Origin: Bacillota bacterium
Lineage (GTDB): Bacteria > Bacillota > Dethiobacteria > Dethiobacterales > Dethiobacteraceae
NCBI GenBank assembly: GCA_018725565.1
Contig: QLUR01000014.1
Coordinates: 1 to 61,615, forward strand
DNA: 61,615 nucleotides
Reading direction: 5' to 3'
This document shows, in pieces, positions 37,970-61,615 of this stretch (its first letter is position 1; the number at the start of each line of letters is the position of its first letter). Both the position numbers and the translations under genes were made by a program. The notes under the pieces were generated by a model, which saw only the letters and a program-made list of their open reading frames with translations, searched no databases and was not told the DNA's origin.

Positions 37970-38397
37970 GTGAGAAGTTCGAACCTAATGTAGTTGCCTT
38001 TCTGTGCAACTGGTGTTCCTATGCCGGTGCGGACCTTGCCGGTACCAGCAGGATTGAGTATCCCCCGAACCTCCATGTCATCAGGGTTATGTGTTCCGGC
38101 AGGGTCAACCCGCTGTTTATAGTAAACGCCCTGCAACAGGGTGCCGACGGAGTTTTGGTTTCAGGCTGTCATCCAGGGGACTGTCACTACATGGAAGGTA
38201 ACTTTTTAGCCCGCCGGAGATTTGCGCTGATGAGAGAACTGCTGAATTTCGTGGGAGTGGATGAAAGCCGTTTCAATATGAGCTGGGTTTCCGCGTCAGA
38301 AGGCGCAAAATGGAAGGACGTGGTAACGGGAGTGGTTAACAATTTGCGTGAGGCCGGCGCCTTTACGGAATTTCCCAGGAAAAAGATTGATTGGTAG
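37966..38397 (+). CDS. mvhD: MvhD/FloxD-type [2Fe-2S] hydrogenase iron-sulfur subunit
   Basis: The 143-residue product is the MvhD family: AFLCNWCSYAGADLAG at the N-terminus, VMCSGRVNP, and GCHPGDCHYMEGN. The five Cys hold a [2Fe-2S] cluster. MvhD docks hydrogenase, formate dehydrogenase or Flox modules onto HdrA. It overlaps hdrA by 4 bp. Confidence 0.94.
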   Translation: MSEKFEPNVVAFLCNWCSYAGADLAGTSRIEYPPNLHVIRVMCSGRVNPLFIVNALQQGADGVLVSGCHPGDCHYMEGNFLARRRFALMRELLNFVGVDESRFNMSWVSASEGAKWKDVVTGVVNNLREAGAFTEFPRKKIDW

Positions 38398-38412
38398 AAG
38401 GAGGGAAAATCA

Positions 38413-39396
38413 TTGCCTGACCTTGAAAAGCTAAGGGCATTAGCCAAAGAGACCATCTCCCGCGATGATATTAAGTGCCTGATCGGTTGGAGACCGGGCA
38501 CTTACGGCTATCGCACCTCACCACACTTTGTCAGGAGCCCTGAAGATGCTGACCAGTTGATTTTTTCTCCGCTGTGCAGCTCCAACCTGGCCACCTATCT
38601 TACCCTGGCAGAAAAACGGCCTGTTCCTCGCGGCGCTCAACCGGATACGCGCAAAGTAGCGATATTGGTCAAAGGCTGTGACAGCCGGGCGGTAGTGCAG
38701 CAAGTGGCTGAGCAGGGAATTAAAAGAGAGGCTGTTTATGTAATCGGCTGCCCCTGTGAGGGGATTATAGATCTCAGGAAGTTGGAGGACAAGTATCCTC
38801 ATACTTTAGAGAGGGTGGAAGCAAGGTGGGAAAACGGCAAAATCAGCCTGGACCTGCCTGGTGGCAGAGCAGTCTTTCCCCGGGAGGAGATTGTTGCCGG
38901 GAAATGCCTGACTTGCCGCTATCCCAACCCTGTTATCGCCGATGTTACTGTGGGAGAAGACGTGGAAGTCAGAGGCAGTGCCGGTTTCGAAGACATTAAC
39001 TGGTTGGAAGTGAAAAACGCGCAAGAAAGATGGGCGTTTTGGCGGGATAAAGTCAACAGTTGTCTCAGGTGCTATTCATGCCGCAATGTCTGTCCGATGT
39101 GTTACTGCGAGGAATGTATCCTGGAGAAGCAAAATCCTGCCTGGATTCAGCGCTCGGTAAACATCTCGGAAAATACTGCTTTTCAATTGGCCAGGGCGTT
39201 CCACCTGGCCGGACGCTGTATAGAATGCGGGGAATGTGAACGGGTTTGTCCTGTTGAAATACCACTGACTCACCTGAACAGAAAACTTGTTAAGGAAGTA
39301 TCTGAACAATTTGCTTTTACGCCGGGGGTTGACCCTGAGGCCAAACCGCTGCTTGTGGGCTACCGCCCTAATGACAAGGAAGACTTTATTTTATAG
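38413..39396 (+). CDS. Flox-type Fe-S protein with FrhB-like N-terminus
   Basis: The 327-residue product combines an N-terminal FrhB/FdhB-like part (VKGCDSRAVVQ, YVIGCPCEGI, GKCLTCRYPNP) with two clustered Fe-S motifs, CLRCYSCRNVCPMCYCEEC (about 217-235) and CIECGECERVCPVEIP (about 275-290). Such proteins sit beside HdrA-MvhD in Flox (NADH dehydrogenase) clusters and relay electrons toward MvhD. I do not assign FloxB or FloxC. The start is TTG 38413 after AGGAGGG. Confidence 0.85.
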   Translation: MPDLEKLRALAKETISRDDIKCLIGWRPGTYGYRTSPHFVRSPEDADQLIFSPLCSSNLATYLTLAEKRPVPRGAQPDTRKVAILVKGCDSRAVVQQVAEQGIKREAVYVIGCPCEGIIDLRKLEDKYPHTLERVEARWENGKISLDLPGGRAVFPREEIVAGKCLTCRYPNPVIADVTVGEDVEVRGSAGFEDINWLEVKNAQERWAFWRDKVNSCLRCYSCRNVCPMCYCEECILEKQNPAWIQRSVNISENTAFQLARAFHLAGRCIECGECERVCPVEIPLTHLNRKLVKEVSEQFAFTPGVDPEAKPLLVGYRPNDKEDFIL

Positions 39397-39416
39397 TGGT
39401 GGTGATGTATTGAGTT

Positions 39417-40424
39417 ATGAAGCTGAACAAAGATAAATTGGCTGATTTTCTGGCGGCAATTCCCGGAAAGACAATATTTGGCCCGCAGCTAAGCGGTGAA
39501 ACGCTTAAGTTTACCCCAATAACAAAAACCGGCGACCTCTGTCTGACAGCGAACAATACAACTGTTCCTCCTAAAAGCGTTGTTTTTCCCCAGACGGAAA
39601 CCATGCTCAGGTTCGAGCAAGGAGCAACAGACATCAGGACGGCGGAACCGGCGGGCGAAACCGTGCTGTTTGGGATCAGACCCTGCGATGCCAGGGCGAT
39701 GTACATTGTCGACAATGTGTTTTTCTGGGACGTAGATGATCCCTATTACCTGGCAAGACGTACAAATTCAACGTTAGTGGGAATGGCCTGCCTTGACCCC
39801 TGTGTAAACTGCTTTTGCACATCCATGGGGGGCGGCCCCGCTTCTACCGAAGGGTTGGACTTGTTGCTGACAGACTTGGGTGACAGCTATCTGCTGGAGG
39901 TGCTGACGGGGAAGGGTGAAATGCTTTGCCAAGGCGCAGGGAATCTGCTGGATGAAGCATCCGTCGCAGACAAAGAGGCGGCAAAGTTGCTGCAGCAAAA
40001 AGCAGCGGGTCAAATAAGGCGGAAAATCGATCCGTCCGGTATCCCTGCCCGGCTGCCCGCCCTCTGGGAAAGCCCGGTCTGGGAAAAAGTTTCTGCATCT
40101 TGCCTCGGTTGCGGGATCTGTACGTACCTTTGCCCCACCTGTCACTGTTTTGACATGCAAGATGAGACAGAAGGCGCAGAATCCAGGAGATACCGGACCT
40201 GGGATTCCTGCATGTTTCCGGAGTACACACTTCATGCCTCGGGACACAACCCCCGTCCTGCCCGGCGGGAACGCACGCGCAACAGGATCAACCATAAATT
40301 TTCTTACTTTGTGGACAAATTTAAGGTTATTGCTTGCGTGGGCTGTGGCAGGTGTATAAATCTCTGCCCTGTAAACATCGATATTTTGGACATTTTGTCG
40401 AAGGTCGGGGAGGAGGCGCTATGA
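39417..40424 (+). CDS. Flox/sulfhydrogenase-beta-type 4Fe-4S protein
   Basis: The 335-residue product resembles sulfhydrogenase beta and anaerobic sulfite reductase A subunits. It has the N-terminal GPQL and KSVVFPQTETML region, FGIRPCDARAM, ACLDPCVNCFCTSMGGGP, then two ferredoxin motifs, CLGCGICTYLCPTCHCFD (about 223-240) and CVGCGRCINLCPVNIDI (about 303-319). It would pass electrons between the flavin subunit encoded next and the Fe-S chain. Its stop overlaps the next ATG. Confidence 0.87.
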   Translation: MKLNKDKLADFLAAIPGKTIFGPQLSGETLKFTPITKTGDLCLTANNTTVPPKSVVFPQTETMLRFEQGATDIRTAEPAGETVLFGIRPCDARAMYIVDNVFFWDVDDPYYLARRTNSTLVGMACLDPCVNCFCTSMGGGPASTEGLDLLLTDLGDSYLLEVLTGKGEMLCQGAGNLLDEASVADKEAAKLLQQKAAGQIRRKIDPSGIPARLPALWESPVWEKVSASCLGCGICTYLCPTCHCFDMQDETEGAESRRYRTWDSCMFPEYTLHASGHNPRPARRERTRNRINHKFSYFVDKFKVIACVGCGRCINLCPVNIDILDILSKVGEEAL

Positions 40425-41263
40425 ATACTCATCCGTATAAACCAAACATTGCTACTGTGCAGGACACTTGGTTCGAGACTTATGGAGACCGCTGCATTAA
40501 GACTTTTAAGGTGGTCTTTGACGACGAGGAGGTGAGGGACAACTGGACCCACCTTCCCGGCCAGTGTGCCATGATTGGAGTGCTGGGCACAGGGGAGAGC
40601 ATGATCTCTATCTCCTGTTCTCCTACGGAGGGAAAATTTCTCCGCTTTTCAGTCATGCGAGCGGGTAAAGTGACAAAGGCGCTGCACGAGCTCGAAGCGG
40701 GTGACAAGATGACTGTTCGCGGACCCTACGGCAACAACTTCCCGGTCGATGAGTGGAAAGGCAAAAACATTATTACCATTGGCGGAGGAATAGGGCAGGC
40801 ACCGTTGCGTCCCATTATCGAATACATCAGGGCCAAAAAAGCGGAATATGGCGACCTGACAGTTGTGTACGGGGCCAGGACCTCGGCTGACTTGTGCTTC
40901 AAAGGGGAATTCAGTGAGCTGGCAAAGGTTGAAAACACCAGTTGTCGTCTTTCTATTGACGTGAAAGAAGAAGACTGGCCCCACTATGTGGGCTTTGTCC
41001 CGGCCCTGCTGATGGAGATCAACCCCTCATTCGAAAATACTATTGCCATAACCTGCGGCCCGCCCATCATGATCAATTTTGTGCTGCAGAACCTGAAAAA
41101 ACTTAACTTTCCTGACGAACAGATCTACACAACCCTTGAGAACAGGATGAAATGCGGTATTGGTAAATGTGGCCGCTGCAATGCGGGCAATCTTTATGTT
41201 TGTAAAGACGGACCGGTGTTTTCCTACGCGACGCTTAAAAATGTGCCGGAAGCCTTTGCTTAA
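40421..41263 (+). CDS. FAD/NAD(P)-binding subunit (FloxA/sulfhydrogenase-gamma type)
   Basis: The 280-residue product is a ferredoxin-NADP reductase-like subunit: an FAD domain (FSVMRAGKVTKAL, DKMTVRGPYGNNFPV), an NAD(P) domain (IITIGGGIGQAPLRPII, VVYGARTSADLCF, ITCGPPIMINFVL) and a C-terminal [2Fe-2S] site (MKCGIGKCGRCNAG-x8-C). It is the likely NAD(P)H entry or exit point of the HdrA-MvhD-Flox assembly. ATG 40421 follows GGGGAGGAGG and overlaps the previous stop. Confidence 0.92.
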   Translation: MNTHPYKPNIATVQDTWFETYGDRCIKTFKVVFDDEEVRDNWTHLPGQCAMIGVLGTGESMISISCSPTEGKFLRFSVMRAGKVTKALHELEAGDKMTVRGPYGNNFPVDEWKGKNIITIGGGIGQAPLRPIIEYIRAKKAEYGDLTVVYGARTSADLCFKGEFSELAKVENTSCRLSIDVKEEDWPHYVGFVPALLMEINPSFENTIAITCGPPIMINFVLQNLKKLNFPDEQIYTTLENRMKCGIGKCGRCNAGNLYVCKDGPVFSYATLKNVPEAFA

Positions 41264-42433: not shown

Positions 42434-42484
42434 TATGTTGTCCGGCCGTTTTGTGTGTATCCTATTAGTGCTGGAGGGAGTCAA

Positions 42485-43846
42485 TTGTTTCTGACAGGGA
42501 CGATGCGTGTCAACCGGGGTGGCAGGCTGGAAATAGGCGGCTGTGATGCCGTGGACCTTGCCCGGCGGTTCGGCACGCCGCTTTATGTTCTGGATGAAGC
42601 ACTGGTCCGGCAAAATTGTACCGCCTACCGCGAAACTCTGCGGCGTCTTTACCCGCGGAGCCAGGTGGCTTATGCCGGAAAAGCCTTTTTGAACATGGCT
42701 ATGTGCCGGCTGGTGGGACAGGAAGAACTGGCACTCGATGTGGCTTCCGGCGGCGAGATTTATACGGCCCTGAAAGCTGGCTTTGCTCCGGAGAAAATGA
42801 TTTTTCACGGCAACAACAAGACACCGGAGGAAATCAGACAGGCACTGCGTGCGGGACTCGGCCGTTTCGTTGCTGACAGCATCTCGGAACTTGAACTTTT
42901 GGCCTCTCTCGCTGCAGAGGAGCGCAAAATCGCGGCCGTAGTTCTGCGCGTCAAGCCGGGGATTGAGGCGCACACCCATCACTATATTCAGACGGGCCAG
43001 CTTGATTCCAAGTTTGGTCTGGGACTGGCCGACGGGCAGGCCCTGGCCGCGGTATGTCTGGCCCTTGATGCGGAGTACCTGGAGTTTTGTGGTTTGCATT
43101 GCCACATCGGTTCGCAGATTTTTGAACTGGAACCGTTCAGACTGGCTGCCGCGGTTATGATGGATTTTATCCAGGAAATCAGGAGTAAAACAGGTGTTGT
43201 AGTCAGGGAGCTGAACCTGGGCGGCGGCGCCGGTATCCGTTATCTGCCGGAAGATACTCCTTTCCCTGTGCAGCGCTACCTCGAGCTGATTACGGCCACG
43301 CTGCAGGAAAAAGCGTCAGAGCATAATTTGCCCCTGCCGCTGCTGTTGATTGAACCGGGCCGCTCCATTGCCGGAGAGGCCGGCAGCACCCTATATACAG
43401 CGGGCGCGATTAAGGAAATTCCGGGAATCCGTAAAATCGTCGCAGTGGACGGCGGGATGACGGACAATTTGCGCCCGGCGCTGTATGGAGCAAAGTACAC
43501 GGTCCTGCACGCAGGCCGGGTGGAGGACCGGGACCTGGAAGTAGTTACGGTCGCAGGGAAGGCCTGCGAGTCAGGAGATGTGCTGATCCGGGACGCTAAA
43601 CTGCCCAGCCTGGCACGCGGGGATGTGCTGGCAGTTCTTTCTACCGGAGCCTATAATTATTCCATGGCCAGCAATTATAACCGCTTCCCGCGCCCGGCCG
43701 TGGTCTTTGTCCGTGACGGCCATGCCGAATTGGTGGTGGCAAGGGAGTCTTACGAAGACCTGGTGCGAAACGACTTGCTCCCGGAACTGCGGACGGCGGC
43801 TGGAGGGGGGAGTGACAGGTGCGGTTCACAAAAATGCACGGCTTAG
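42485..43846 (+). CDS. lysA: Diaminopimelate decarboxylase LysA
   Basis: LysA makes lysine from meso-diaminopimelate. The 453-residue PLP enzyme shows the cofactor Lys in VAYAGKAFLNMAM (about residue 63), HGNNKTPEEI, LHCHIGSQI, LNLGGGAGIRY, EPGRSIAGEAG and CESGDVL. The start is TTG 42485 after GGAGGGAG; ATG 42503 is an alternative. It overlaps dapF by 28 bp. Confidence 0.95.
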   Translation: MFLTGTMRVNRGGRLEIGGCDAVDLARRFGTPLYVLDEALVRQNCTAYRETLRRLYPRSQVAYAGKAFLNMAMCRLVGQEELALDVASGGEIYTALKAGFAPEKMIFHGNNKTPEEIRQALRAGLGRFVADSISELELLASLAAEERKIAAVVLRVKPGIEAHTHHYIQTGQLDSKFGLGLADGQALAAVCLALDAEYLEFCGLHCHIGSQIFELEPFRLAAAVMMDFIQEIRSKTGVVVRELNLGGGAGIRYLPEDTPFPVQRYLELITATLQEKASEHNLPLPLLLIEPGRSIAGEAGSTLYTAGAIKEIPGIRKIVAVDGGMTDNLRPALYGAKYTVLHAGRVEDRDLEVVTVAGKACESGDVLIRDAKLPSLARGDVLAVLSTGAYNYSMASNYNRFPRPAVVFVRDGHAELVVARESYEDLVRNDLLPELRTAAGGGSDRCGSQKCTA

Positions 43847-44655
43847 GGAACGATTTTGTGGTTATCGGGGAATGGCCGCAAGAGACGCGGAACTGGCCGG
43901 AATTGGTCCGCCGGCTTTGCCATCGCCGTTTAGGTGTCGGCGCAGACGGTGTGGCTGTCTTACAGCCTGGAGAAAAGACCCGTTATCGCCTGCGGGTTTT
44001 TAACGCTGACGGCAGTGAAGCGGAAATGTGTGGCAACGCGCTGCGTGTGGCCGGCAAATACCTGTATGAGCGGGGCTTAATCCGGGAGACCGTTTTTCAG
44101 TTGGAAATGCAACAGGCTGTTAAAACGTTGCGCCTGGAGCTGGCCGGCGACCGGGTGGCGGCAGTGGAAGTGGACATGGGCAGTCCGCTGCTGGACAGCA
44201 CAGCTGTACCGGTCGGCGGGCCTGCGAGACAGGTGGTTGGCGAAGAGCTGGAGGCTGCCGGGCAGGTATTTAAGATCACCGCTGTTTCCATGGGTAACCC
44301 GCACTGTGTAATCTTTGGCGGCGACCCGGAGCTTGTCCCGCTCCGGGAATGGGGCCCGGCGATTGAAACTCACCCGCTTTTCCCCCGGAAAACCAACGTG
44401 GAATTTGTCGAGGTACTTTCGCCAGGGGAAGCACGCTTGCGTGTTTTTGAGCGGGGGGTAGGAGAAACTCCGGCCTGCGGGTCAGGTGCCTGCGCCGTTT
44501 TGGTGGCCGGGGTGTTAAACGGCCTGCTGGACCGCCGGGCCTGGATAACCCTGCCGGGTGGTACGCTGCGGGTGGAATGGCGGGAAGACGGCCATGTATA
44601 CATGACCGGTCCTGCCAGCGAGGTTTTCCACGGTGAACTGCTATCCGCGTGGTAA
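43819..44655 (+). CDS. dapF: Diaminopimelate epimerase DapF
   Basis: DapF converts LL- to meso-diaminopimelate. The 278-residue product has the family start RFTKMHGLGNDFVVI and both catalytic Cys, in SEAEMCGNALR (about 74) and ETPACGSGACA (about 219), plus GNPHCVIF. The start is GTG 43819 with GGAGGGGGGAG upstream, inside the end of lysA. Confidence 0.96.
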   Translation: MRFTKMHGLGNDFVVIGEWPQETRNWPELVRRLCHRRLGVGADGVAVLQPGEKTRYRLRVFNADGSEAEMCGNALRVAGKYLYERGLIRETVFQLEMQQAVKTLRLELAGDRVAAVEVDMGSPLLDSTAVPVGGPARQVVGEELEAAGQVFKITAVSMGNPHCVIFGGDPELVPLREWGPAIETHPLFPRKTNVEFVEVLSPGEARLRVFERGVGETPACGSGACAVLVAGVLNGLLDRRAWITLPGGTLRVEWREDGHVYMTGPASEVFHGELLSAW

Positions 44656-44682
44656 AAGAAAACGCGAAAAGGAGGTCCCCGC

Positions 44683-44946
44683 ATGGTTACTGTACAAATT
44701 TGTGTGGGCAGTTCCTGCTTTCTACGGGGAGCTCCCAGGATCATCGATAAGTTTCAGGAGCTTATGGCCGAACACGGGCTTTCCAACCGCCTTATTCTTA
44801 AAGGCTCGTTTTGTCTGGAACAATGCACCAAAGGTGGCGTTACCCTGTTTATCGGTGATGAGTTGCTGACCGGAGTCGGGTATGAAGATATACCTGTGCT
44901 GTTCGAAAGCAAGATCCTCCCGGCCGTGAAGGATGTGAGCAGATGA
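44683..44946 (+). CDS. Thioredoxin-like [2Fe-2S] ferredoxin-domain protein
   Basis: The 87-residue product is a NuoE/HydC-like thioredoxin-fold [2Fe-2S] protein: CVGSSCFLRGA (Cys 7 and 12) and GSFCLEQCTKGGV (Cys 44 and 48), giving the four ligands. AAGGAGG precedes the ATG. Its stop overlaps the hydrogenase-like gene start (ATGA), so it is probably its direct electron partner. Confidence 0.9.
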   Translation: MVTVQICVGSSCFLRGAPRIIDKFQELMAEHGLSNRLILKGSFCLEQCTKGGVTLFIGDELLTGVGYEDIPVLFESKILPAVKDVSR

Positions 44947-46697
44947 CTGAGCGTGCCACTGAATACATTCAGTCGATCAAGGCCAAGTGCCGTGACTGCT
45001 ACCTCTGCCTGCGCTCTTGCCCGGTTAAAGCCATCAGGTTTGAACCGGGGAAAGACCGGCACGAGCTGCATACCAGCGTCATCGACCAGCGGTGTGTCTT
45101 GGACGGGCGTTGTGTTCAGGTCTGCCCGCAAAAGGCCAAACGACCCCGTCGGAACATAGATCGGGTACAGGCTATGCTGGCATCCGGCAGCCCGGTGGCC
45201 GTCAGCCTGGCGCCCTCTTTCCCTTCTGTGTCCGCTGTCGATCCATTCCTGGTGCCGGCCGCTTTGCGCAGGCTGGGTTTTGCTTACGTCCAGGAAACCG
45301 CCATCGGCGCGGAGATGGTGGCTCGGGAACACCAGAGGCTGGCACGACTGTCAAACCGCACCCTGATCACCAGTTCGTGCCCGGCTATCGTCAACCTGAT
45401 CGAGTGCCATTATCCGGAAGCCAGGCGCTTTCTATCCCCGATTGTGTCGCCGATGATTGCACACGGGCGCTATCTCAAGCGTATCCTTCCCGATCATAAA
45501 ATCGTGTTTATCGGACCGTGTATCGCAAAAATGCAGGAGGCCGAAGCCAGGGCGCTGGCCGGCGCAGTCGATGCGGTACTTACTTTCGAGGAACTGGCGG
45601 AGTGGCTTGACCGCCTGAATATAGCCTTAGATCAACTGGAGCCCAGCGGTTTCGATGGGATTACACCGCACTGGGCTAGGTTGTTTGCGGTTGACGGGGG
45701 CACCTTGCGCACTGCGGCGCTGGACACCGACGCCCTCAGCCAGCATACCCAGATTGTCTCCGGGTTGGACAAGTGCAAGGAAATGATCGAATATCTGCTT
45801 ATGCAGACGGATGAACTGCCCCGGCTTATTGAAATGGTGGCTTGCGAAGGCGGCTGTATAGCAGGTCCCAGCAATCCAAGCTTGGATCAGGTGTTGCTGC
45901 GCCGCAGCCGGGTATTGAAATATGCCGAGGCCCGTGCTCAAGCGGCGGGATCCGATTTTGAAAGTCGTGCTCTTTTAAGCGAAGTGGATCTCTCACGCTC
46001 CTACGAAGACTGGTCCATCAGCTTGTTTGAGCCGGACGAGGATACTATCCGGGCTATCCTGGCCAAATTCGGCAAATTCAGCGCCGCGGATGAACTCAAC
46101 TGCCGATCCTGCGGCTATAATACATGCCGGGAAAAGGCAGTGGCAGTTTTCAGGGGCTGGGCCGATCCGGAGATGTGTTTACCCTATATGCGCGAGCGCG
46201 CCGAGTCCATGTCCAACATGGTTGTCTCCTCTACGCCCAACGCTATTTTCGTGGTTAACGCCGATGGAATCATTATCGAGATCAACCCTGCCGCCGAGCG
46301 GGTGTTTCGCACGGCCAAGGCCGATACCGTAAATCGCCATATCAGTGACTTCATGCCCCCGGAGATCTTCGCACGGGCAATGGAAACAGGCGAGATCTTG
46401 CTCGACGAGGTATCGTTTCCCCACTTGCATTATACGGCGCGGCGAACAGTGTTCCGGGAAGACTGCCAAATGGTGACCATCGCGCTGCTGGCGGACTGCA
46501 CCGAAGAAAAACATCACCTGGAAACCGTCCAGAAGATGCGCTGGCAGACGCTTGACAAAGCCCAGGGAGTTATCAACAAGCAGATGGAAGTGGCGCAAAA
46601 GATCGCCGGCCTTCTGGGAGAAACTACGGCGGAAACCAAGGTTTTGCTCACGCAGCTGATGCGGGTAATGCGTGACGAGGACAGTCAGTCCGGATGA
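44943..46697 (+). CDS. Sensory [FeFe]-hydrogenase-like protein with PAS domain
   Basis: The 584-residue product has an N-terminal ferredoxin domain (C16-C19-C22-C26; C51, D54, C57, C61), an H-cluster domain with all four cluster Cys (C146 in TSSCPA, C193 in GPCIAK, C301 and C305 in ACEGGC), a further [4Fe-4S] motif (C387, C390, C395, C412) and a PAS domain (about 430-540) with a short C-terminal helix. L1 is TSSCP instead of TSCCP, so the proton-relay Cys of catalytic hydrogenases is Ser145. This matches group C (HydS-type) sensory hydrogenases. The neighbour downstream is a PP2C phosphatase, the presumed output. Confidence 0.88.
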   Translation: MTERATEYIQSIKAKCRDCYLCLRSCPVKAIRFEPGKDRHELHTSVIDQRCVLDGRCVQVCPQKAKRPRRNIDRVQAMLASGSPVAVSLAPSFPSVSAVDPFLVPAALRRLGFAYVQETAIGAEMVAREHQRLARLSNRTLITSSCPAIVNLIECHYPEARRFLSPIVSPMIAHGRYLKRILPDHKIVFIGPCIAKMQEAEARALAGAVDAVLTFEELAEWLDRLNIALDQLEPSGFDGITPHWARLFAVDGGTLRTAALDTDALSQHTQIVSGLDKCKEMIEYLLMQTDELPRLIEMVACEGGCIAGPSNPSLDQVLLRRSRVLKYAEARAQAAGSDFESRALLSEVDLSRSYEDWSISLFEPDEDTIRAILAKFGKFSAADELNCRSCGYNTCREKAVAVFRGWADPEMCLPYMRERAESMSNMVVSSTPNAIFVVNADGIIIEINPAAERVFRTAKADTVNRHISDFMPPEIFARAMETGEILLDEVSFPHLHYTARRTVFREDCQMVTIALLADCTEEKHHLETVQKMRWQTLDKAQGVINKQMEVAQKIAGLLGETTAETKVLLTQLMRVMRDEDSQSG

Positions 46698-47881
46698 GCA
46701 CCATGACGAGCAGATTTGAGTCGGTGGAAGAACTGTTTTTCGAGGTCGGCTACAGCCAGCTCAACAAGAAAAACGAAGAGCTGTGCGGCGACAGTATCGC
46801 CGTGGCCGAATCGGGAGATTCTTTGATTGTGGTTTGTTCCGACGGGCTGGGCAGCGGAGTCAAAGCCAGCATCCTCTCTTCGCTTACCTCCAAGATGGCG
46901 TCGACCATGCTGCAGCAGCATGGGTGTACTCTCGAAGAAGTGATCGAAACCCTGGCCTACACGCTGCCGGTATGCGAAGTGCGGGGGCTGGCCTATAGCA
47001 CTTTCAGCATTTTACAGATTATGCGTGACGGCCGTGCCTACCTGGCCGAATATGACAGCCCGGCGGCGTATTACGGTAACCGCGACAAATTGCTGGAAAT
47101 CCCCAGGCAAGACCGTATTATCGGAGAACGCCTTATCCATGAAGCATATCTTGAGCTTATGCCCGGTGACTGGATCTGCCTGATCAGCGACGGTATCCTG
47201 CATGCCGGTATCGGCGGCATCTGGAACCTGGGGTGGGGAGCGGAGCGCGTCGGCAGCTTTGTTAAACACGTTGCCGCGAAAGGCGAGGACGCCGTAGCCA
47301 GCGCCAATGAGGTTACATCTCTGGTTAACAAGCTATACGCAGGCCAGCCTGGGGATGACGCCAGCGTAATTTTTGTCTATGCCCGCCGGCCGCGCCTGCT
47401 TAATATGTTGTTTGGGCCGCCCCGCGACCGCACTGCGGATCGGGAGGTGGTGCGCCGGTTCATGGAAAGCCCGGGGAATAAGGTCGTCTGCGGCGGCACC
47501 ACCGCCTATATTGTCGCCCGGGAAATGGAGAAGGAGCTCCATGTGGATCTCTCCTCCATGAATGACAAGGTCCCGCCCACGGCTGAGATCGACGGTATTG
47601 ACTTAGTTAGCGAAGGCATGCTTACCGTGTCTTATGCCACAGCCAAGATCAGGACTGCTGCCCGATGCGGCGATCTGGCAAACATGCGCGACGGCGCCAG
47701 CCGCCTGGCAGCGCTGTTGCTCAAAGCTGACCGTATTGAGATCTCCGTTGGCCTGGCTCTCAACCCGGCCCACCAGAGCCCGGATGTGCCGCTCAGCCTG
47801 GGTCTTAAGAACAAGGTTGTGGATGACCTCGTGGAAGCCCTTAAGCAGCGCGGAAAGAACGTAACCGTTAATTGTTGCTAA
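46694..47881 (+). CDS. SpoIIE-family PP2C phosphatase with extra C-terminal domain
   Basis: The 395-residue product has a PP2C/SpoIIE domain at about 12-230 with its metal Asp residues in VCSDGLGSGVKAS, CLISDGILHAG and GQPGDDASVIF. Such phosphatases act on phosphorylated anti-anti-sigma factors or similar targets. The C-terminal region (about 240-395, starting near MESPGNKVVCGGTTAYIVARE) is not a known domain to me. The ATG overlaps the stop of the hydrogenase-like sensor (ATGA), so the two are almost surely co-translated. No anti-sigma pair is adjacent. Confidence 0.88.
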   Translation: MSTMTSRFESVEELFFEVGYSQLNKKNEELCGDSIAVAESGDSLIVVCSDGLGSGVKASILSSLTSKMASTMLQQHGCTLEEVIETLAYTLPVCEVRGLAYSTFSILQIMRDGRAYLAEYDSPAAYYGNRDKLLEIPRQDRIIGERLIHEAYLELMPGDWICLISDGILHAGIGGIWNLGWGAERVGSFVKHVAAKGEDAVASANEVTSLVNKLYAGQPGDDASVIFVYARRPRLLNMLFGPPRDRTADREVVRRFMESPGNKVVCGGTTAYIVAREMEKELHVDLSSMNDKVPPTAEIDGIDLVSEGMLTVSYATAKIRTAARCGDLANMRDGASRLAALLLKADRIEISVGLALNPAHQSPDVPLSLGLKNKVVDDLVEALKQRGKNVTVNCC

Positions 47882-47937
47882 TGGCGTGTTAAAAAATGGG
47901 TATGCATAAAACTAAACGGCGGAGGAGAGGGAAAGCG

Positions 47938-49119
47938 TTGCACATTCAGCCGGCTGAACGTATCAGTAAGCTGCCGCGCTACCTGTTTGCGGAAATCGAC
48001 AAAAAAGTAAGGGCCGCTGCGGAGAAGGGAGTCGATGTGATCAGGCTTGGTATCGGCGACCCGGACGAGCCTGCCCCGGAATATATTGTCCGGCGGATGA
48101 TGGCGGAAGTACAGCAGCCGCGCAATCATACTTACCCTCCTGATGAGGGCTTGCCGGAATTTAAACAAGCAGTCGCCGATTATTATTACCGGCGGCACAA
48201 GGTAACCCTTGATCCCAAGAAGGAGGTCTGTGTGCTGCTGGGTTCCAAGGAAGGCATTGCTCATATTTCCGCCTGCTTTGTCAATCCCGGCGACATAAAT
48301 CTGGTGCCTGACCCGGGATACCCGGTTTACAGTATCGGCACGATGTTTGCGGGCGGAGAAGCGTACCGGATGCCGCTTTATAAGGCAAACAATTTCCTGC
48401 CGGACCTGCAGGCCATTGCTCCGGCTGTTGCCCGCCGCGCCAAGCTGATGTTTTTGAACTATCCCAACAACCCGACCGGAGCAGTGGCGCCGCCGCAGTT
48501 TTTTGCCGATGCAGTGGAATTCGCTGATAAATGGCAGATTATAGTCTGTCATGACCTGGCCTACAGTGAAATCGCCTATGATGATTATTTGCCTCCCTCT
48601 TTTTTGGAGACTCCGGGAGCGAAAGAAGTTGGCATTGAATTTGGTTCGCTTTCCAAAACTTTTAACATGACTGGCTGGCGAATCGGCTATGCGGTGGGAT
48701 GCAGTGCAGTGGTTGAAGTGTTGAGCCGCTATAAGACTAATATTGACTCCGGGACTTTTAAGGCTATCCAGTATACAGGCGCTGAGGCGTTCAACAACCC
48801 GGCTGCCGCTGAATTCCGCGCGAGAATGTGCAGCCTCTACCGGGAAAGACGTGATGCCGCTGTCCTGGCGTTACGGGAAATGGGCTTTGAGGTGCAGACA
48901 CCTCTTGCCACCTTTTATGTTTGGGCGTCGATCCCGGCCGGGTTTGCCGGTTCTGCTGAATTTGTCAGCTTTATCCTGGAAGAGGCCGGCGTAGTTCTTA
49001 CTCCGGGACGAGGTTTCGGCGAGTACGGCGAAGGCTATTTCCGTCTGGCTTTGACGGTGGAGGCGACCAGAATCCGCGAGGCAATGGAACGTATCAAAAA
49101 GGCGCTTTCGCGCCGGTAA
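47938..49119 (+). CDS. dapL: LL-diaminopimelate aminotransferase DapL
   Basis: DapL converts tetrahydrodipicolinate straight to LL-diaminopimelate, skipping the acylated intermediates. The 393-residue class I/II aminotransferase has VIRLGIGDPDEPAP, NYPNNPTGAVA, CHDLAYSEIAYDDY, the PLP Lys in GSLSKTFNMTGWRIGYAVG, and the late PGRGFGEYGEGYFRLA. The start is TTG 47938 after GGAGGAGAGG, which gives the usual length. DapL is typical of Peptococcaceae-like anaerobes. Confidence 0.93.
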   Translation: MHIQPAERISKLPRYLFAEIDKKVRAAAEKGVDVIRLGIGDPDEPAPEYIVRRMMAEVQQPRNHTYPPDEGLPEFKQAVADYYYRRHKVTLDPKKEVCVLLGSKEGIAHISACFVNPGDINLVPDPGYPVYSIGTMFAGGEAYRMPLYKANNFLPDLQAIAPAVARRAKLMFLNYPNNPTGAVAPPQFFADAVEFADKWQIIVCHDLAYSEIAYDDYLPPSFLETPGAKEVGIEFGSLSKTFNMTGWRIGYAVGCSAVVEVLSRYKTNIDSGTFKAIQYTGAEAFNNPAAAEFRARMCSLYRERRDAAVLALREMGFEVQTPLATFYVWASIPAGFAGSAEFVSFILEEAGVVLTPGRGFGEYGEGYFRLALTVEATRIREAMERIKKALSRR

Positions 49120-49141
49120 AACTATATCGGGAAAAGCTGTG

Positions 49142-49170
49142 TTGCGCGGCGCCAGCTATGCACATATAAT
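49142..49170 (+). promoter_or_regulatory. Probable promoter of asd-dapG
   Basis: TTGCGC (49142-49147) and a perfect TATAAT (49165-49170) with a 17-bp spacer lie 26 bp before the asd start. Confidence 0.65.
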
Positions 49171-49196
49171 AAGCGAAAGAGTCAGGAGGGCTTAAC

Positions 49197-50234
49197 ATTA
49201 AAAAGTATAATGTAGCTATCGTAGGAGCAACAGGGATGGTGGGGCAGTCGCTGGTCCAGGTGTTGGAAGAACGTCGCTTCCCGGTAGGAGGACTGAAGCT
49301 GCTCGCTTCCTCCCGCTCCGCCGACCTTACCGTGGACGTTCTAGGGCGCACCTACCGGGTGGAGGAGGCTAAAGCTGAGGCCTTTGCCGGTGTGGATGTA
49401 GCTTTTTTCAGCGCCGGCGAGGCAATCAGCAAAGAATTGGCTGCGGAGGCGGTGCGGCAGGGAGCGGTGGTGGTAGATAACAGCAACGCTTTCCGGATGG
49501 AGGAGGACGTTCCGCTTGTCGTCCCTGAAGTTAATGCTGCCGCGCTGTCCGGGCATCGTGGAATTATTGCCAACCCCAACTGCTCTACTATCCAGTTGGT
49601 GGTAGCTCTGGCACCGCTGCAACAGGCGGCTGGTCTGCTGCGGGTAGTGGTCTCGTCTTATCAGTCTGTTTCCGGTGCCGGCAGGGAGGCTGTTGACGAG
49701 TTGGCGGCCCAGTCCCAGGCTGTTTTAGCGGGGCGCGATGATTTTCCGCGGGAGCGCATTCCCCATGCCGGCGCCAAGGTACAGCACCAGATTGCTTTTA
49801 ACCTTGTGCCGCAGATTGATGTTTTTGACCTTGACGGCTACTGCCGGGAAGAGCTTAAGATTATTAGGGAAACACGCAAGATCATGGGGCTGCCTGAGTT
49901 GCGGATCACGGCGACCACTGTACGTGTTCCCGTTTTCAACAGCCATTCCGAAGCGGTCAACCTGGAGCTGGCTGCGCCGCTTTCAGCCGCTCAAGCCACG
50001 GAGGTATTGCGTTCAGCGCCGGGGGTGGTGGTGGTTGATGACCTGTCGCAGCTTACCTACCCGATGCCGGTACAGGTAAGCGGTCGCGATGAAGTTTTTG
50101 TCGGGAGGATACGGCCGGACTTTTCGGTGGAAAACGGGCTTAATATGTGGGTGGTAGCGGACAACATCCGCAAAGGTGCGGCGACCAATTCCATTCAGAT
50201 TGCCGAGGCGCTTCTGGCCGGCAGCTTACTTTAG
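49197..50234 (+). CDS. asd: Aspartate-semialdehyde dehydrogenase, apparent ATT start
   Basis: Asd reduces aspartyl phosphate to the semialdehyde. The 345-residue product, read from 49197, has KYNVAIVGATGMVGQSL (NADP motif), NPNCSTIQLV with the catalytic Cys (about residue 132), and a late VPVFNSHSEAVNLE. No ATG, GTG or TTG occurs in frame between the stop at 49170-49172 and ATG 49236, which would delete the essential GxxGxxG motif. GGAGGG (49185-49190) lies 6 nt before ATT 49197, and translation from there gives the expected family N-terminus. An AUU start (as in infC) is the best reading; a sequence error is the alternative. Confidence 0.93.
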   Translation: MKKYNVAIVGATGMVGQSLVQVLEERRFPVGGLKLLASSRSADLTVDVLGRTYRVEEAKAEAFAGVDVAFFSAGEAISKELAAEAVRQGAVVVDNSNAFRMEEDVPLVVPEVNAAALSGHRGIIANPNCSTIQLVVALAPLQQAAGLLRVVVSSYQSVSGAGREAVDELAAQSQAVLAGRDDFPRERIPHAGAKVQHQIAFNLVPQIDVFDLDGYCREELKIIRETRKIMGLPELRITATTVRVPVFNSHSEAVNLELAAPLSAAQATEVLRSAPGVVVVDDLSQLTYPMPVQVSGRDEVFVGRIRPDFSVENGLNMWVVADNIRKGAATNSIQIAEALLAGSLL

Positions 50235-50247
50235 GAGGCTCAGGGAA

Positions 50248-51504
50248 GTGAAAATCATCGTACAAAAATTTGGAGGAACGTCTGTGGCCAGCCCGGTGCT
50301 GCGTGCGGAAGCGGTCAATCGTGTCCGGGAGGCCAGGGAAAGAGGCTATAAGCCGGTAGTTGTAGTCTCGGCCATGGGGCGGGCGGGTGATCCATACGCC
50401 ACGGATACACTGCGCGACTTGCCGTCTTCAGCCTGTCTGTGCGGCGAATATTCGCTGCGCGACCTGGACCTGATTATGTGCTGCGGAGAAATAATCTCCG
50501 CCGTAGTGATGGCCGCCACCCTCTGTGACCGTGGGCTGATTTCCCTGGCTTTGACCGGCTGGCAGGCAGGGATGATCACCGACGGCAATTACGGGGAGGC
50601 GCAGGTGATTGATTTCCAGCCTGAGCGGCTGCTGGCCCACCTGCGTAACGATGAAGTGGTGGTGGTAGCCGGTTTTCAGGGGATTACACCGGAGGGAGAG
50701 ATTAACACCCTGGGGCGGGGCGGCAGCGATACCAGCGCAGTAATTTTGGGCGCAGGACTGGGGGCTGAGCGGGTGGAAATTTATACCGATGTGAACGGGA
50801 TAATGACGGCAGACCCGAGGCTGGTTCAGGATGCCCGGATAATCGACCATCTTACTTATAATGAAGTCTGTCAGCTGGCGTATGAAGGCGCTAAGGTGAT
50901 CCACCCTCGGGCGGTTGAAGTAGCCATGCATCATAACATCCCGCTGATTGTCAAGCACCTGCGGGAAAGCGAGTCCGGCACCGTTATCAGCCGTGACCCG
51001 GCCGTCGGTGAGCCCGGCTTTGGCAAGAAGGAACTGCGCGTGATTACCGGTATTGCCCACAGCACCGGTCTTGCCCAGGTGATAGTGGAGATGACAGCGG
51101 AGGAGGCGGACTTGGAGCTTGCCGTGTTTGAACGATTGGCCGCGGACCGCATCTCCATTGACCTGATATCTTTGTTTCCTGAGCGCAAATTTTTTATCGT
51201 TCAGGAGGAAAAGCTGGCGCAGGTTGAAGCAATATTAAACTCACTTGGTGTGAAATACCAGGTTTTACGCGGATGCGCCAAAGTTTCCGTGGTCGGTCTT
51301 GGCATGCGTAACCTTCCCGGAGTCATGGCCCGTGTTGTGCAGGCGCTGCACGAAAAAAGAATCCGCATCTTACAAACAGGCGACTCCAATATTACTATCT
51401 CCCTGCTAATCCGCGAAGAGGACCTGCCTGAGGCCATCCGCACTCTGCACGACCATTTCAAACTGTCTGTTCCGCCAAGCGACGACGAGCGAGTATTGGC
51501 CTAA
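50248..51504 (+). CDS. dapG: Aspartokinase (aspartate kinase)
   Basis: The 418-residue product phosphorylates aspartate, the first step of the aspartate pathway. It has KFGGTSVASP at the start, GRGGSDTSAVILG, YTDVNGIMTADPR, and two C-terminal ACT domains (about 275-405) for feedback by lysine or other end products. The start is GTG 50248 after TAGGAGG. It follows asd by 13 bp, an asd-dapG pair as in Bacillus. Which end product inhibits it cannot be read from sequence. Confidence 0.94.
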   Translation: MKIIVQKFGGTSVASPVLRAEAVNRVREARERGYKPVVVVSAMGRAGDPYATDTLRDLPSSACLCGEYSLRDLDLIMCCGEIISAVVMAATLCDRGLISLALTGWQAGMITDGNYGEAQVIDFQPERLLAHLRNDEVVVVAGFQGITPEGEINTLGRGGSDTSAVILGAGLGAERVEIYTDVNGIMTADPRLVQDARIIDHLTYNEVCQLAYEGAKVIHPRAVEVAMHHNIPLIVKHLRESESGTVISRDPAVGEPGFGKKELRVITGIAHSTGLAQVIVEMTAEEADLELAVFERLAADRISIDLISLFPERKFFIVQEEKLAQVEAILNSLGVKYQVLRGCAKVSVVGLGMRNLPGVMARVVQALHEKRIRILQTGDSNITISLLIREEDLPEAIRTLHDHFKLSVPPSDDERVLA

Positions 51505-51573: not shown

Positions 51574-52671
51574 ATGGAAAATAACTGGGAGGTGACCGTC
51601 AGTCTTGGGGATGACCTTCCGGGCGGGGTAATGCTGCTCCTGCTTGCCGGCATTAAAGAGACAGGCTCCCTGAGCAGGGCGGCGCGGGAGGCCGGGGTAT
51701 CATATCGTTATGCCTGGAGCCTGCTGAATAAACTGGAAAAAACCCTTAACCAGCAGCTGCTGGTGCGCAGGGCCGGGGGCTATGCCGGCGGGGGCAGCGA
51801 ACTGACCGGCCCCGGCCTGCGGGTGCTAAGCTATCTGCTGGAGCTGCGGCAGGAGACACGCCTGCAGCTTGCTGCGCTGTTGCAGGGGCCACTCCGGGAG
51901 AAAAGGGGCAGGCAGCTGGTTGTGGCCAGTTCCATGGAGCCGGTTGTTACCGGGCTGCTGGATGTATTGGAGCAGGCTTACCTGCAGGAAACAGGCACAG
52001 TTGTCCGTCATGTGGCTGCCGGCAGCGGCCAGGCCTTGGAGTTGGCCAAGGCAGGGCGCGCCGATCTGTGTTTGACCCACGCTCCGGAACTGGAAGAAAA
52101 ATTTGTCGCCGCCGGCTGGGGAACACGCCGCCTGCCGGTAATGGTTAATGACTATGTGCTGGCAGGGCCTGCGGACGACCCGGCAGGAGTTTGCGTGACA
52201 ACCGCGGTGGTGACCGCCCTGCAAAAGATTGCCGTCAGAGCCGCTTTTTTCGTCAGCCGCTCTGACCTGTCCGGGACAAACTTGCTGGAACTGAAATTGT
52301 GGCGGAAGGCAGGAATAGCTCCGGCAGGAGAACCATGGTACAGGGAATCCAGGAGTGTACTTGGGAGTTATGGAGTATTGCGGCAGGCGACCGAGCTGCA
52401 GGCGTATACCCTGGTGGACCGGGCCAGCTTCATCGCCGGCCATGGCGGAACTGCCCTTAAAATTTGTCTTGAAGGGGACGGGCTGCTCGTTAACGTTTTC
52501 TCCGTTTTGCCTGTCAGCGCCCTGAAAACCGGCGTGGACCAGGAAGGGGCGGAGCAGTTTGCTGACTGGCTGACGGGGAGGACGGCGCAAAGTATAATCG
52601 CCGAGTTTGGTTGTTATAATTTTGCCTGTTCACTGTTCAAGCCCGTTAATCCAAGCAGGCAAACTGCTTGA
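51574..52671 (+). CDS. ModE-like regulator with TupA-type tungstate-binding domain
   Basis: The 365-residue product has an N-terminal ModE/LysR-type winged helix (about 15-90: LLLLAGIKETGSLSRAAREAGVSYRYAWSLL, then LNQQLLVRR) and a C-terminal domain like the TupA/ModA oxyanion-binding fold (about 110-350: VVASSMEPVVTGLLDVLE, AAGSGQALELAKAGRADLCLTHAPELE). It probably senses tungstate or molybdate with the periplasmic-type domain rather than the usual MOP domains. It is divergent in domain make-up from E. coli ModE. It lies just before tupABC, whose promoter holds a ModE-like palindrome. GTGAGGAGG precedes the ATG. Confidence 0.88.
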   Translation: MENNWEVTVSLGDDLPGGVMLLLLAGIKETGSLSRAAREAGVSYRYAWSLLNKLEKTLNQQLLVRRAGGYAGGGSELTGPGLRVLSYLLELRQETRLQLAALLQGPLREKRGRQLVVASSMEPVVTGLLDVLEQAYLQETGTVVRHVAAGSGQALELAKAGRADLCLTHAPELEEKFVAAGWGTRRLPVMVNDYVLAGPADDPAGVCVTTAVVTALQKIAVRAAFFVSRSDLSGTNLLELKLWRKAGIAPAGEPWYRESRSVLGSYGVLRQATELQAYTLVDRASFIAGHGGTALKICLEGDGLLVNVFSVLPVSALKTGVDQEGAEQFADWLTGRTAQSIIAEFGCYNFACSLFKPVNPSRQTA

Positions 52672-52697
52672 CAGCGTTTGCAGCCGGGTGTTATACT
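52668..52697 (+). promoter_or_regulatory. Sigma-A promoter of tupABC
   Basis: A perfect -35 TTGACA (52668-52673) and a -10 TATACT (52692-52697) with an 18-bp spacer overlap the end of the regulator gene. Confidence 0.8.
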
Positions 52698-52723
52698 CGC
52701 TATGTATAACGATGCATAGCGAG
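52696..52723 (+). promoter_or_regulatory. ModE-like operator overlapping the tupA transcription start
   Basis: A perfect 9-bp inverted repeat CTCGCTATG/CATAGCGAG has a 10-bp TATAACGATG spacer. It begins inside the -10 and covers the expected start site, so a bound repressor would block transcription. CGCTAT...ATAGCG resembles the half-sites of the E. coli ModE box. Regulation by the adjacent ModE-like protein is inferred. Confidence 0.7.
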
Positions 52724-52737
52724 GGAGGAACTATTTA

Positions 52738-53925
52738 ATGCAAAAGTTGCCGCGCGTGTTTGCAAGTCTGTTGGTAGTTCTGCTGTTTATGGCTGCCTGC
52801 GGCAGCGGGTTGGCCGCCGCCGCCGAACTGAGGGTCACTCTGGATGGCCGGCCTGTCACTATGGATGTCAAGCCAATAAGGGAAAACAATACTGTTTTGC
52901 TGCCGCTCCGGGCCGTGCTTAGCGAGCTGGGCGCGGAAGCAGCCTGGGACGCCGGAAACAGGCGCGTAAACATTCGCAGAGGGCGTACGGACCTAACCCT
53001 GACGATAGGCAGTACCGCAGTGTTGAAGAACGGCGCGCAGATGTCTGTGGCTGTCCCGCCCAGGATTGTTAATGGACGGACATTTGTGCCTCTGCGTTTT
53101 GTCATAGATGCAGTCGGGGCACAGGCAGTCTGGCGGGAGAGAGATTTAACGGTAGCTATTACCAGCCCGCCCAAACGGCCGCTGACTCTGGCGACTACCA
53201 CCAGTACCTACGATTCGGGACTGCTGCAGTTCATGATGCCGTTTTTTGAAAGAGCGTTCGATTATGAAGTAAAAACTATTTCCGTTGGCACAGGCGCCGC
53301 GTTGGCTTTAGGGCGCGACGGCAACTGTGACGTTGTCCTGGTCCACGCCAGGGAAACGGAGTTACAGCAGGTGGCGCAGGGATTTTTTATCGGCCGGCGT
53401 GAAGTGATGTATAATGATTTTATTATCGTTGGCCCGACGGCTGACCCGGCCGGGGTGCGCCGGGCGGCCGGCGCTGTAGCCGCGTTAAGAGCAATTGCTG
53501 AGACCAGGGCAACTTTTGTCTCCAGAGGGGACAGGTCGGGCACACACATTAAGGAAAACGAACTGTGGCGCGCGGCAGGCCTGACCCCCGCCGGAGCCTG
53601 GTATTTGAGTGCCGGAGCCGGTATGGCCGACACATTGCGGATTGCTGATGAGCGGCAGGGGTACACCCTAACTGACCGCGGCACATTCTATGCGCAGCAG
53701 GAGAGATTACCGGGGCTGACCCTCCTGTTTGAGGGAGGGGAAATTTTGCATAACCAATACGGGATTATGGCAGTTAATCCGGCGCGGCACCCCAGGATTA
53801 ATCTGGAAGGCGCAACTGATTTAATTCAGTTTTTTGTTTCTCCCCGGGGACAGTCATTAATCAGGGATTTCAAAGATCCCCGTGGCAGACAGCTCTTTTT
53901 CCCCAACGCCCATCTAATGAGGTAA
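52738..53925 (+). CDS. tupA: Tungstate-binding protein TupA with N-terminal copper-amine-oxidase-like domain
   Basis: The 395-residue exported product has a signal segment (about 1-28; the Cys in MAACGSG is a weak lipobox), then a copper-amine-oxidase N1-like domain (about 32-142, with the paired repeats VLLPLRAVLSELGAEAAWD and FVPLRFVIDAVGAQAVW) and a TupA domain (about 148-395). TupA features are TTTSTYDSGLLQFM, SVGTGAALALGRDGNCDVVLVHA, YNDFIIVGP and FVSRGDRSGTH. TupA hands tungstate to TupBC. The extra domain is unusual and may anchor it near the cell wall. GAGGGAGGA precedes the ATG. Confidence 0.92.
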   Translation: MQKLPRVFASLLVVLLFMAACGSGLAAAAELRVTLDGRPVTMDVKPIRENNTVLLPLRAVLSELGAEAAWDAGNRRVNIRRGRTDLTLTIGSTAVLKNGAQMSVAVPPRIVNGRTFVPLRFVIDAVGAQAVWRERDLTVAITSPPKRPLTLATTTSTYDSGLLQFMMPFFERAFDYEVKTISVGTGAALALGRDGNCDVVLVHARETELQQVAQGFFIGRREVMYNDFIIVGPTADPAGVRRAAGAVAALRAIAETRATFVSRGDRSGTHIKENELWRAAGLTPAGAWYLSAGAGMADTLRIADERQGYTLTDRGTFYAQQERLPGLTLLFEGGEILHNQYGIMAVNPARHPRINLEGATDLIQFFVSPRGQSLIRDFKDPRGRQLFFPNAHLMR

Positions 53926-53945
53926 CCGATTGAGAGGGTAAAACT

Positions 53946-54638
53946 GTGATTGAAGCGTTATCAAGCGCAGTTAAGCTGCTAATCTCCTTTGATCAGGAGT
54001 TGTACCGCATTATCGGACTATCACTTCTTGTCTCCGGAAGCGCAGTCGTTTTGGCTGCGCTTTGCGGTATTCCCCTTGGTACTTGGCTTGGCCTGAAGCC
54101 TCTCCCTGGTGTGCGGGCCATAACTATTGCCGTTTACACGTTAATGGGGCTTCCCCCGGTTGTTGCCGGCCTGCTTATCTATATGCTCCTGTCCAGAAGG
54201 GGGCTGCTTGGTCCCTTAGACCTGCTCTTTACAGTGGAGGCGATGATTATCGTGCAGACGTTATTAGCTACCCCGATCATTATTGGCCTGACGGCAATCG
54301 CCGTGCGGAGCAGGGGGAGAGAAATCCGTGAAACGGCGATTGTTTTGGGTGCAAACCGCCTTATGTTGCTGCGGTCGCTGATCCATGAGGCCCGTTACGG
54401 TATCTTCGGAGCGGTTATAGCTGGTTTTGGACGCTTGGTTGCCGAAGTTGGCGCGGTAATGATGGTAGGCGGCAACATTGAGGGTCATACCCGGGTGCTG
54501 ACCACCGCAATTGTCCTGGAAACCAGGAAAGGCGATTTTGCTTTGGCTGTGGCCCTCGGTATCATCCTCTTGCTTCTTGCCCTGCTGATTAACAGCGCCC
54601 TGTTCCGTCTGCAGTCCGGAGGCGCCAGTGGCGCATAA
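53946..54638 (+). CDS. tupB: Tungstate ABC transporter permease TupB
   Basis: The 230-residue product has five or six membrane helices and the cytoplasmic EAA-type loop RETAIVLGANRLMLLRSLIHEARYGIFGAVIAGFGRLVAEVGA (in two parts, about 127-170). It matches the TupB/ModB type and follows tupA. The start is GTG 53946 after GAGAGGG. It overlaps tupC by 11 bp. Confidence 0.92.
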   Translation: MIEALSSAVKLLISFDQELYRIIGLSLLVSGSAVVLAALCGIPLGTWLGLKPLPGVRAITIAVYTLMGLPPVVAGLLIYMLLSRRGLLGPLDLLFTVEAMIIVQTLLATPIIIGLTAIAVRSRGREIRETAIVLGANRLMLLRSLIHEARYGIFGAVIAGFGRLVAEVGAVMMVGGNIEGHTRVLTTAIVLETRKGDFALAVALGIILLLLALLINSALFRLQSGGASGA

Positions 54639-61471: not shown

Positions 61472-61558
61472 AAGAATTGTCGAGGATTGTCGTCGGGTTA
61501 TGTATGACAGATAAACCGTAGACTCTCAGAAACCAAGCTTTAGGAGGCGAAACGGTGC

Positions 61559-61615
61559 ATGGCAACAGTTCAACTTTATGTTGACGGTCGGGAGATTACC
61601 GCCCAAGAAAGCAAT
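61559..61615 (+). CDS. Partial [2Fe-2S] domain protein (hydrogenase or formate dehydrogenase N-terminus)
   Basis: Only the first 19 codons are present, running to the window end. MATVQLYVDGREITAQESN is the pattern of the N-terminal [2Fe-2S] domain of NuoG-like subunits, NAD-linked [FeFe] hydrogenases and Mo/W formate dehydrogenases. TAGGAGG lies 12 nt upstream. The sigma-54 promoter precedes it. With so little sequence the enzyme cannot be named. Confidence 0.65.
   Translation, partial: MATVQLYVDGREITAQESN

Follow-up and report, generated by a model that had tools for sequence, protein, structure and literature searches.

A phosphatase-linked, sensory-type [FeFe] hydrogenase module situated in a lysine operon of a Dethiobacteraceae bacterium

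Introduction

The HydDB classification of [FeFe] hydrogenases includes a sensory class, C3, designated 'phosphatase-linked (putative)' (PMC5037454), in which a group C hydrogenase (H-) domain and a PAS domain are encoded with a Ser/Thr phosphatase, through which H2 is proposed to be sensed. Here we describe a three-gene module of this kind, encoding a thioredoxin (Trx)-like protein, a PAS-containing hydrogenase homologue (HydS) and a PP2C phosphatase, at positions 44683-47881 of a 61,615-nucleotide stretch of DNA from a Bacillota bacterium of the family Dethiobacteraceae (GenBank assembly GCA_018725565.1, contig QLUR01000014.1; the whole stretch is hereafter the window). H2 sensing in anaerobes decides how electrons are split between H2, ethanol and acetate. 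C3 modules usually adjoin a group A hydrogenase, as described for Hydrogenedentota (PMC11406978), whereas the window copy stands alone in a lysine operon.

The closest described systems are two fermentative operons. In Thermoanaerobacterium, hfsABCD encodes HfsA, the PAS hydrogenase HfsB, the serine phosphatase HfsC and the hydrogenase HfsD (PMC5707799, PMC11837493), and strains with hfsA or hfsB deleted shift their fermentation (PMC5707799). Compared by description, HfsB and HfsC are of the same types, and in the same order, as the window HydS and PP2C; the gene before hfsB encodes HfsA, which would be the equivalent of the window Trx-like protein. The Thermoanaerobacterium operon ends with a catalytic hydrogenase of HfsD type, which the window module lacks. 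On plasmid pRUMAL01 of Ruminococcus albus 7 the order is rex-adhE-phosphotransferase-Trx-Trx-HydS-PP2C-4Fe4S hydrogenase; its HydS, PP2C and Trx proteins are 39%, 39.5% and 39% identical to those of the window and lie in the same order, but the operon adds rex, adhE, an APH-like phosphotransferase and a catalytic-type hydrogenase, and its HydS retains the second ferredoxin Cys that is replaced in the window protein. A cluster of such genes in R. albus was 111-fold lower when co-culture drew H2 down, and a role for the phosphatase was proposed (PMC6776011). Taken together, the HydDB C3, hfs and R. albus literature means that a direct route from an H-cluster to a PP2C phosphatase is not a new idea, although an earlier, sequence-only reading of the window had presented it as little studied.

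Two further families provide points of reference. TmHydS of Thermotoga maritima is a group C PAS hydrogenase without the Cys299, Met353 and Met497 of CpI (PMC10055695); by its published description it has Ala/Gly/Ser at these positions, whereas the window HydS has Ser/Gly/Val. The window phosphatase shares its fold, metal-site Asp residues and DG(L/M)G motif with the SpoIIE/RsbU-type PP2C phosphatases, but differs from them in having an additional conserved C-terminal domain, a sensor that is a separate protein and no STAS gene nearby.

Results and Discussion

We give a probability of roughly three in four to the reading that the window holds an HfsABC/HydS-type C3 module that relays an H2 or redox signal to its PP2C phosphatase, was gained horizontally without hydABC, and acts in trans. 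The three genes, on the + strand as are all features of the module, encode the HfsA-like Trx-like [2Fe-2S] protein (44683..44946; 87 amino acids, with four Cys in CVGSSC ... FCLEQC), the HydS/HfsB-like PAS [FeFe] hydrogenase homologue of HydDB group C3 type (44943..46697; 584 amino acids) and the HfsC-like, SpoIIE-type PP2C phosphatase (46694..47881; 395 amino acids). By open reading frame coordinates, both ATGA overlaps joining them are exact. Pfam recognizes two Fer4 domains, Fe_hyd_lg_C (1.5e-51), FeS (PF04060) and PAS in HydS, and SpoIIE (3.2e-13) in the phosphatase. The Pfam match of the Trx-like protein to 2Fe-2S_thioredx is weak (E 0.0012, under the curated cut-off); a phmmer search matches it to the Trx-like end of bifurcating HydA (7p5h, 2.5e-7), and it is 36% identical to a paralogue in its own genome (L020:10228-10470; loci and genomes of the comparison set carry L and G numbers). 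The protein probably serves HydS as a partner for electron transfer or docking. The overlapping genes, the [2Fe-2S] Trx-like protein, the four H-cluster Cys with Ser at the proton-relay position, the PAS domain and the SpoIIE-type phosphatase had all been recognized in the sequence-only reading; the altered ferredoxin motif, C-terminal FeS motif, additional phosphatase domain and lysine operon setting described below go beyond it.

Placement of the H-domain was investigated using 80 loci from public genomes, together with the five further Fe_hyd_lg_C loci that the window's genome contains. The tree, built by a quick method, covers 141 H-domains, and its group labels are taken from domains and gene context. 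The window H-domain falls inside a PP2C-linked clade (68 rows; Shimodaira-Hasegawa-like approximate likelihood ratio test, SH-aLRT, 92) that is sister to histidine-kinase-linked group C, the group C branch as a whole having an SH-aLRT of 96, while the other three groups, A (trimeric), B (HfsD-like) and D (HATPase-linked), branch separately. The phylogenetic check suggested earlier thus returns a sensory-type group C protein and not a group A enzyme: the H-domain does not cluster with HydA, and it combines the four H-cluster Cys with altered C299, M353 and M497 positions, a C-terminal FeS motif and a PAS domain. All of this fits HydDB class C3, phosphatase-linked type, an assignment made by domains and gene context, and the window HydS is a putative H2 sensor.

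Pairing with the phosphatase is nearly obligate. Of the 68 full-length PAS-HydS genes, every one that allows a judgement has PP2C immediately downstream. Three are special: L095 meets a contig end, L024 contains an N stretch, and L051 has one divergent PP2C (L051:11518-12705, scoring 58 bits against more than 370 for the others that are complete). A Trx-like gene precedes most of these HydS genes, and because the Trx-HydS-PP2C order recurs across phyla the arrangement is not due to chance.

The H-domain of HydS (45198..45869) carries L1 as TSS(145)C(146)P, L2 as G(191)PC(193) and L3 as V(299)AC(301)EGGC(305). The H-cluster ligands C146, C193, C301 and C305 are kept in 68/68 homologues, and the genome encodes the maturase HydG. 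By alignment, the CpI positions C299, M353 and M497 correspond to Ser145, Gly191 and Val299; since 21 of the 68 members of the PP2C-linked clade retain Cys at CpI position 299, its loss is not diagnostic. Following the H-domain, and before the PAS domain (46224..46472, residues 428-510), lies a [4Fe-4S]-type motif, C387xxC390x4C395x16C412 (PF04060; 46101..46178), and this Cx2Cx4Cx16C pattern is common to groups C and D (PMC8163306). The last ~40 residues, an output helix at 46548..46667 spanning residues 536-575, are the best-conserved part of the HydS C-terminus: in the C3 set, Q547, A555 and G559 are conserved at 100% and L558, A563 and L572 at 99%. The helix is missing from 18 other group C proteins, and the four of these that were inspected are all histidine kinase fusions. 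Because it is conserved here and absent from kinase-fused relatives, the helix is the best candidate for contact with the phosphatase, and is probably a short phosphatase-coupling element.

In the phosphatase, the metal-site residues D33, D50, D166 and D221/D222 are invariant, and an AlphaFold2 (AF2) model (predicted local distance difference test, pLDDT, 89.7) resembles the SpoIIE phosphatase domain, the closest solved fold. Beyond it lies a confidently modelled α/β domain (47396..47878, ~160 amino acids; pLDDT 90.5) with conserved GPP, CGGTT, PP, GIDLVTEG, GxxxN and GK motifs. This domain had no Pfam match, a sequence search returned nothing credible, and no PDB structure matched below E 0.001; the best PDB match, methylglyoxal synthase, was rejected as a relative (E 0.01, template modelling score 0.37). 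In 98 genomes of the class, 9/9 full copies of the domain sit after a HydS.

The setting of the window module is unlike that of most of its homologues. Hydrogenase genes lie within 10 kb of 41 of 55 assessable module loci (14 lack them), and the nearest modules, L024 (HydS 91% identical) and L025 (82%), directly follow hydABC. In the window the order is lysA-dapF-[module]-dapL-asd-lysC, with lysA (42455-43846) and dapF (43819-44655) upstream (42455..44655, +) and dapL (LL-diaminopimelate aminotransferase), asd (49236-50234) and lysC (50176-51504) downstream (47938..51504, +); dapL probably starts at TTG 47938 rather than ATG 47896. The module's operon includes no catalytic hydrogenase gene, and the sequence-only reading correctly saw no kinase or anti-sigma gene beside the module. 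DNA homology to the donor-like locus L024 is limited on the left at 44649..44656, at the dapF stop codon, and on the right at 47915..47938, shortly ahead of where dapL probably starts. Wherever the locus of a relative spans the two genes, dapF directly adjoins dapL and the module is absent. The L024 genome, 91% identical in HydS, has a dapL only 64% identical to that of the window, whereas dapL orthologues within the window's own family are 73-82% identical; among 20 sampled genomes of this family only G011 has another window-type HydS, 73% identical and inside a hyd operon. The joined dapF-dapL pair in relatives and the position of the closest modules after hydABC suggest that the module was transferred horizontally and became separated from its hydrogenase, and the simplest reading is that three genes were gained in this way and inserted without hydABC. 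No hydABC remnant was found in the window, and hydABC of the L024 type was not found in the genome assembly. GC content and GC at third codon positions of the insert resemble those of its neighbours and are uninformative on foreign origin; no convincing flanking repeats at the boundaries and no transposase reading frame between dapF and dapL were seen. A short DNA match to the gene after the module in L024 (8020-8087) occurs at 61542-61615, at the contig end.

Several points weigh against this reading. In the literature consulted we found no published demonstration of any C3 HydS controlling its phosphatase, and Ser at position 299 together with Asp54 in the second ferredoxin motif might signal lost or changed H2 chemistry. 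As for its origin, the G011 HydS means that, instead of transfer, the module may have been in the family for longer and been lost from other members. Finally, the assembly consists of 112 contigs, and the dapF and dapL junctions could conceivably reflect a misjoin, though both fall cleanly between genes.

In the mechanism we favour, H2, or a ferredoxin redox state set by H2, would alter the H-cluster and Fe-S chain of HydS; the C-terminal [4Fe-4S] cluster would relay this change to the PAS domain and C-terminal helix, and the helix would set the activity of the partner PP2C. We infer both this control of the phosphatase by HydS and its direction. The phosphatase would then dephosphorylate a Ser/Thr-phosphorylated regulator, probably not a STAS anti-anti-sigma factor. 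A consensus scan for a promoter of the module's own within the operon gave results no better than shuffled sequences. Its insertion between dapF and dapL suggests that the module is probably co-transcribed with the lysine/diaminopimelate (DAP) genes and would act in trans.

The ferredoxin motifs of HydS bear on whether H2 itself is the signal. The first ferredoxin motif, C16xxC19xxC22xxxC26P (44988..45020), is complete, while in the second, C51xxD54xxC57xxxC61P (45093..45125), Asp stands in for the second Cys. Within the set of 68 homologues, only the window, L024, L025 and L026 have this variant, and it occurs also in G011, G059 and G019; being common to a close clade, it is inherited and not an error. 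The CxxDxxC ligand pattern is known from Asp-ligated ferredoxins whose clusters interconvert between 3Fe and 4Fe forms, and the second cluster of the window HydS would be altered accordingly. A less likely alternative is that the module senses ferredoxin or redox poise (or O2 or iron, via the Asp-ligated cluster) instead of H2, with the H-domain merely relaying electrons to PAS; the [2Fe-2S] partner could supply such electrons, and Ser at position 299 is in keeping with the idea. The invariance of the four H-cluster Cys and the presence of HydG argue against it, as does the finding that the characterised group C/D proteins TmHydS and TamHydS, which also lack Cys299, still bind an H-cluster and turn over H2 (PMC10055695, PMC8163306).

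The kinase opposing the C3 phosphatase could be the RsbW-like HATPase of a group D cassette (DRTGG-HATPase-HydS-D), two H2 sensors thereby sharing one substrate, possibly the DRTGG protein. Such a HATPase is strong in 14 of the 98 class genomes, including 5/5 with a full C3 phosphatase against 9/93 others (hypergeometric 2.9e-5). Both cassettes are side by side in the Bacteroidales locus L067 and share one operon in G011 (L156, contig 2), a locus in which hydABC and a TM1266-like regulator accompany the group D/RsbW-like cassette and the window-type C3 module. The window's own genome also carries both: its group D TamHydS-like cassette (L019:6862-14540, contig 102), a candidate second H2-sensing system, comprises DRTGG, RsbW-like HATPase, HydS-D, DRTGG, NuoE, HATPase, Trx, HydB and HydA. 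However, the association is confounded because both cassettes travel with hydABC operons, and the genomes are related. Moreover, G060, which carries a C3 fragment and is the sixth genome of the class to be counted here, has no strong HATPase match; in several C3 genomes elsewhere no HATPase_c_2 hit passes the cut-off; and operons of the R. albus type have an APH-like phosphotransferase instead (15 loci have the APH-like phosphotransferase, 20 have AdhE and 29 have Rex). We consider this kinase pairing unlikely.

Less probable still is partner switching of the SpoIIE and RsbU kind, in which the PP2C would dephosphorylate a STAS anti-anti-sigma factor; the one candidate in this genome is SpoIIAA, which would link H2 to sigma-F and sporulation. 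The SpoIIE-like fold of the phosphatase speaks for this idea. A search for anti-anti-sigma partners, which the sequence-only reading had suggested, yielded one STAS protein in the window's genome, adjoining a SpoIIAB-like kinase, alongside three SpoIIE-type phosphatases (one SpoIIE-like and two C3); near the window module there is no STAS or HATPase_c_2 gene. The partner did not prove general, however: among 30 module genomes, several of them partial and searched with Pfam PF01740 but not STAS_2, two had no STAS match and four had matches only in frames of sulfate-permease size (about 520-590 amino acids). With six of 30 lacking a free-standing STAS protein, a STAS substrate would not be general, subject to genome completeness and STAS_2, and is unlikely to be the common substrate of C3 phosphatases. 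Four of the 30 had no HATPase_c_2 match above cut-off. The module is also present in Bacteroidales, Ignavibacteria and Izimaplasma, which are not known to sporulate. We would go only speculatively further and suggest that C3 sensors signal without STAS/anti-sigma switching, through the helix and the phosphatase C-terminal domain, and that this copy has been rewired, with its Asp-ligated cluster, into lysine/DAP biosynthesis. The comparative data nevertheless narrow the search, in making a STAS substrate unlikely and in pointing to a short helix as the probable coupler and to an unstudied phosphatase domain.

That the relocated copy, cut off from its hydrogenase operon, is non-functional or decaying is similarly improbable: although matching hydABC genes are absent from the assembly and a second complete operon (NuoE-HydB-HydA-Trx-HydS-PP2C; L020, contig 31; about 40% identical) could be cited in its favour, each of the three genes has an intact frame and its own ribosome-binding site, the catalytic Asp and cluster Cys residues are kept, and, as noted above, 14 of 55 modules likewise lack a nearby hydrogenase. 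What is new here is a solitary module between dapF and dapL, apart from any hydrogenase, the Asp54 motif of its clade, the lack of a free-standing STAS protein in six module genomes by Pfam search and the unmatched C-terminal domain of the phosphatase; a module that moved without its hydrogenase could show, as a natural experiment, whether its three genes are enough to signal.

Neighbouring and other loci

Upstream in the window, 37966-41263 encodes FlpD/MvhD-like, FrhB-like and ShyB-like proteins and flavin adenine dinucleotide (FAD)/2Fe-2S subunits, which may form a soluble complex, either for electron transfer or of sulfhydrogenase-like type, with no hydrogenase subunit in view. The sequence-only reading had proposed this redox operon as the target of the phosphatase; we found no conserved link between them, and the proposal fits poorly with homologues that adjoin hydrogenase genes and with a copy that seems to have been inserted into a lysine operon. 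Downstream, 51574-55371 encodes a ModE-like regulator (identified by eye) and a TupA-type tungstate ATP-binding cassette (ABC) transporter, the TupA of which has an extra N-terminal domain of ~140 amino acids.

Elsewhere in the same genome, L021:9520-14695 (contig 2) places a 366-amino-acid Fe_hyd_lg_C protein beside a 1363-amino-acid BadF/HgdC-type ATPase (by eye). The former has a long branch in the tree, and its L3 reads ADPCDGGPG and not ACxGGC; its final H-cluster Cys may thus be absent or shifted. In L019:12810-14540 and other group A HydA proteins, L1 reads TSCSP as opposed to TSCCP; of 26 group A rows, 12 have Ser aligned to the ligand Cys300.

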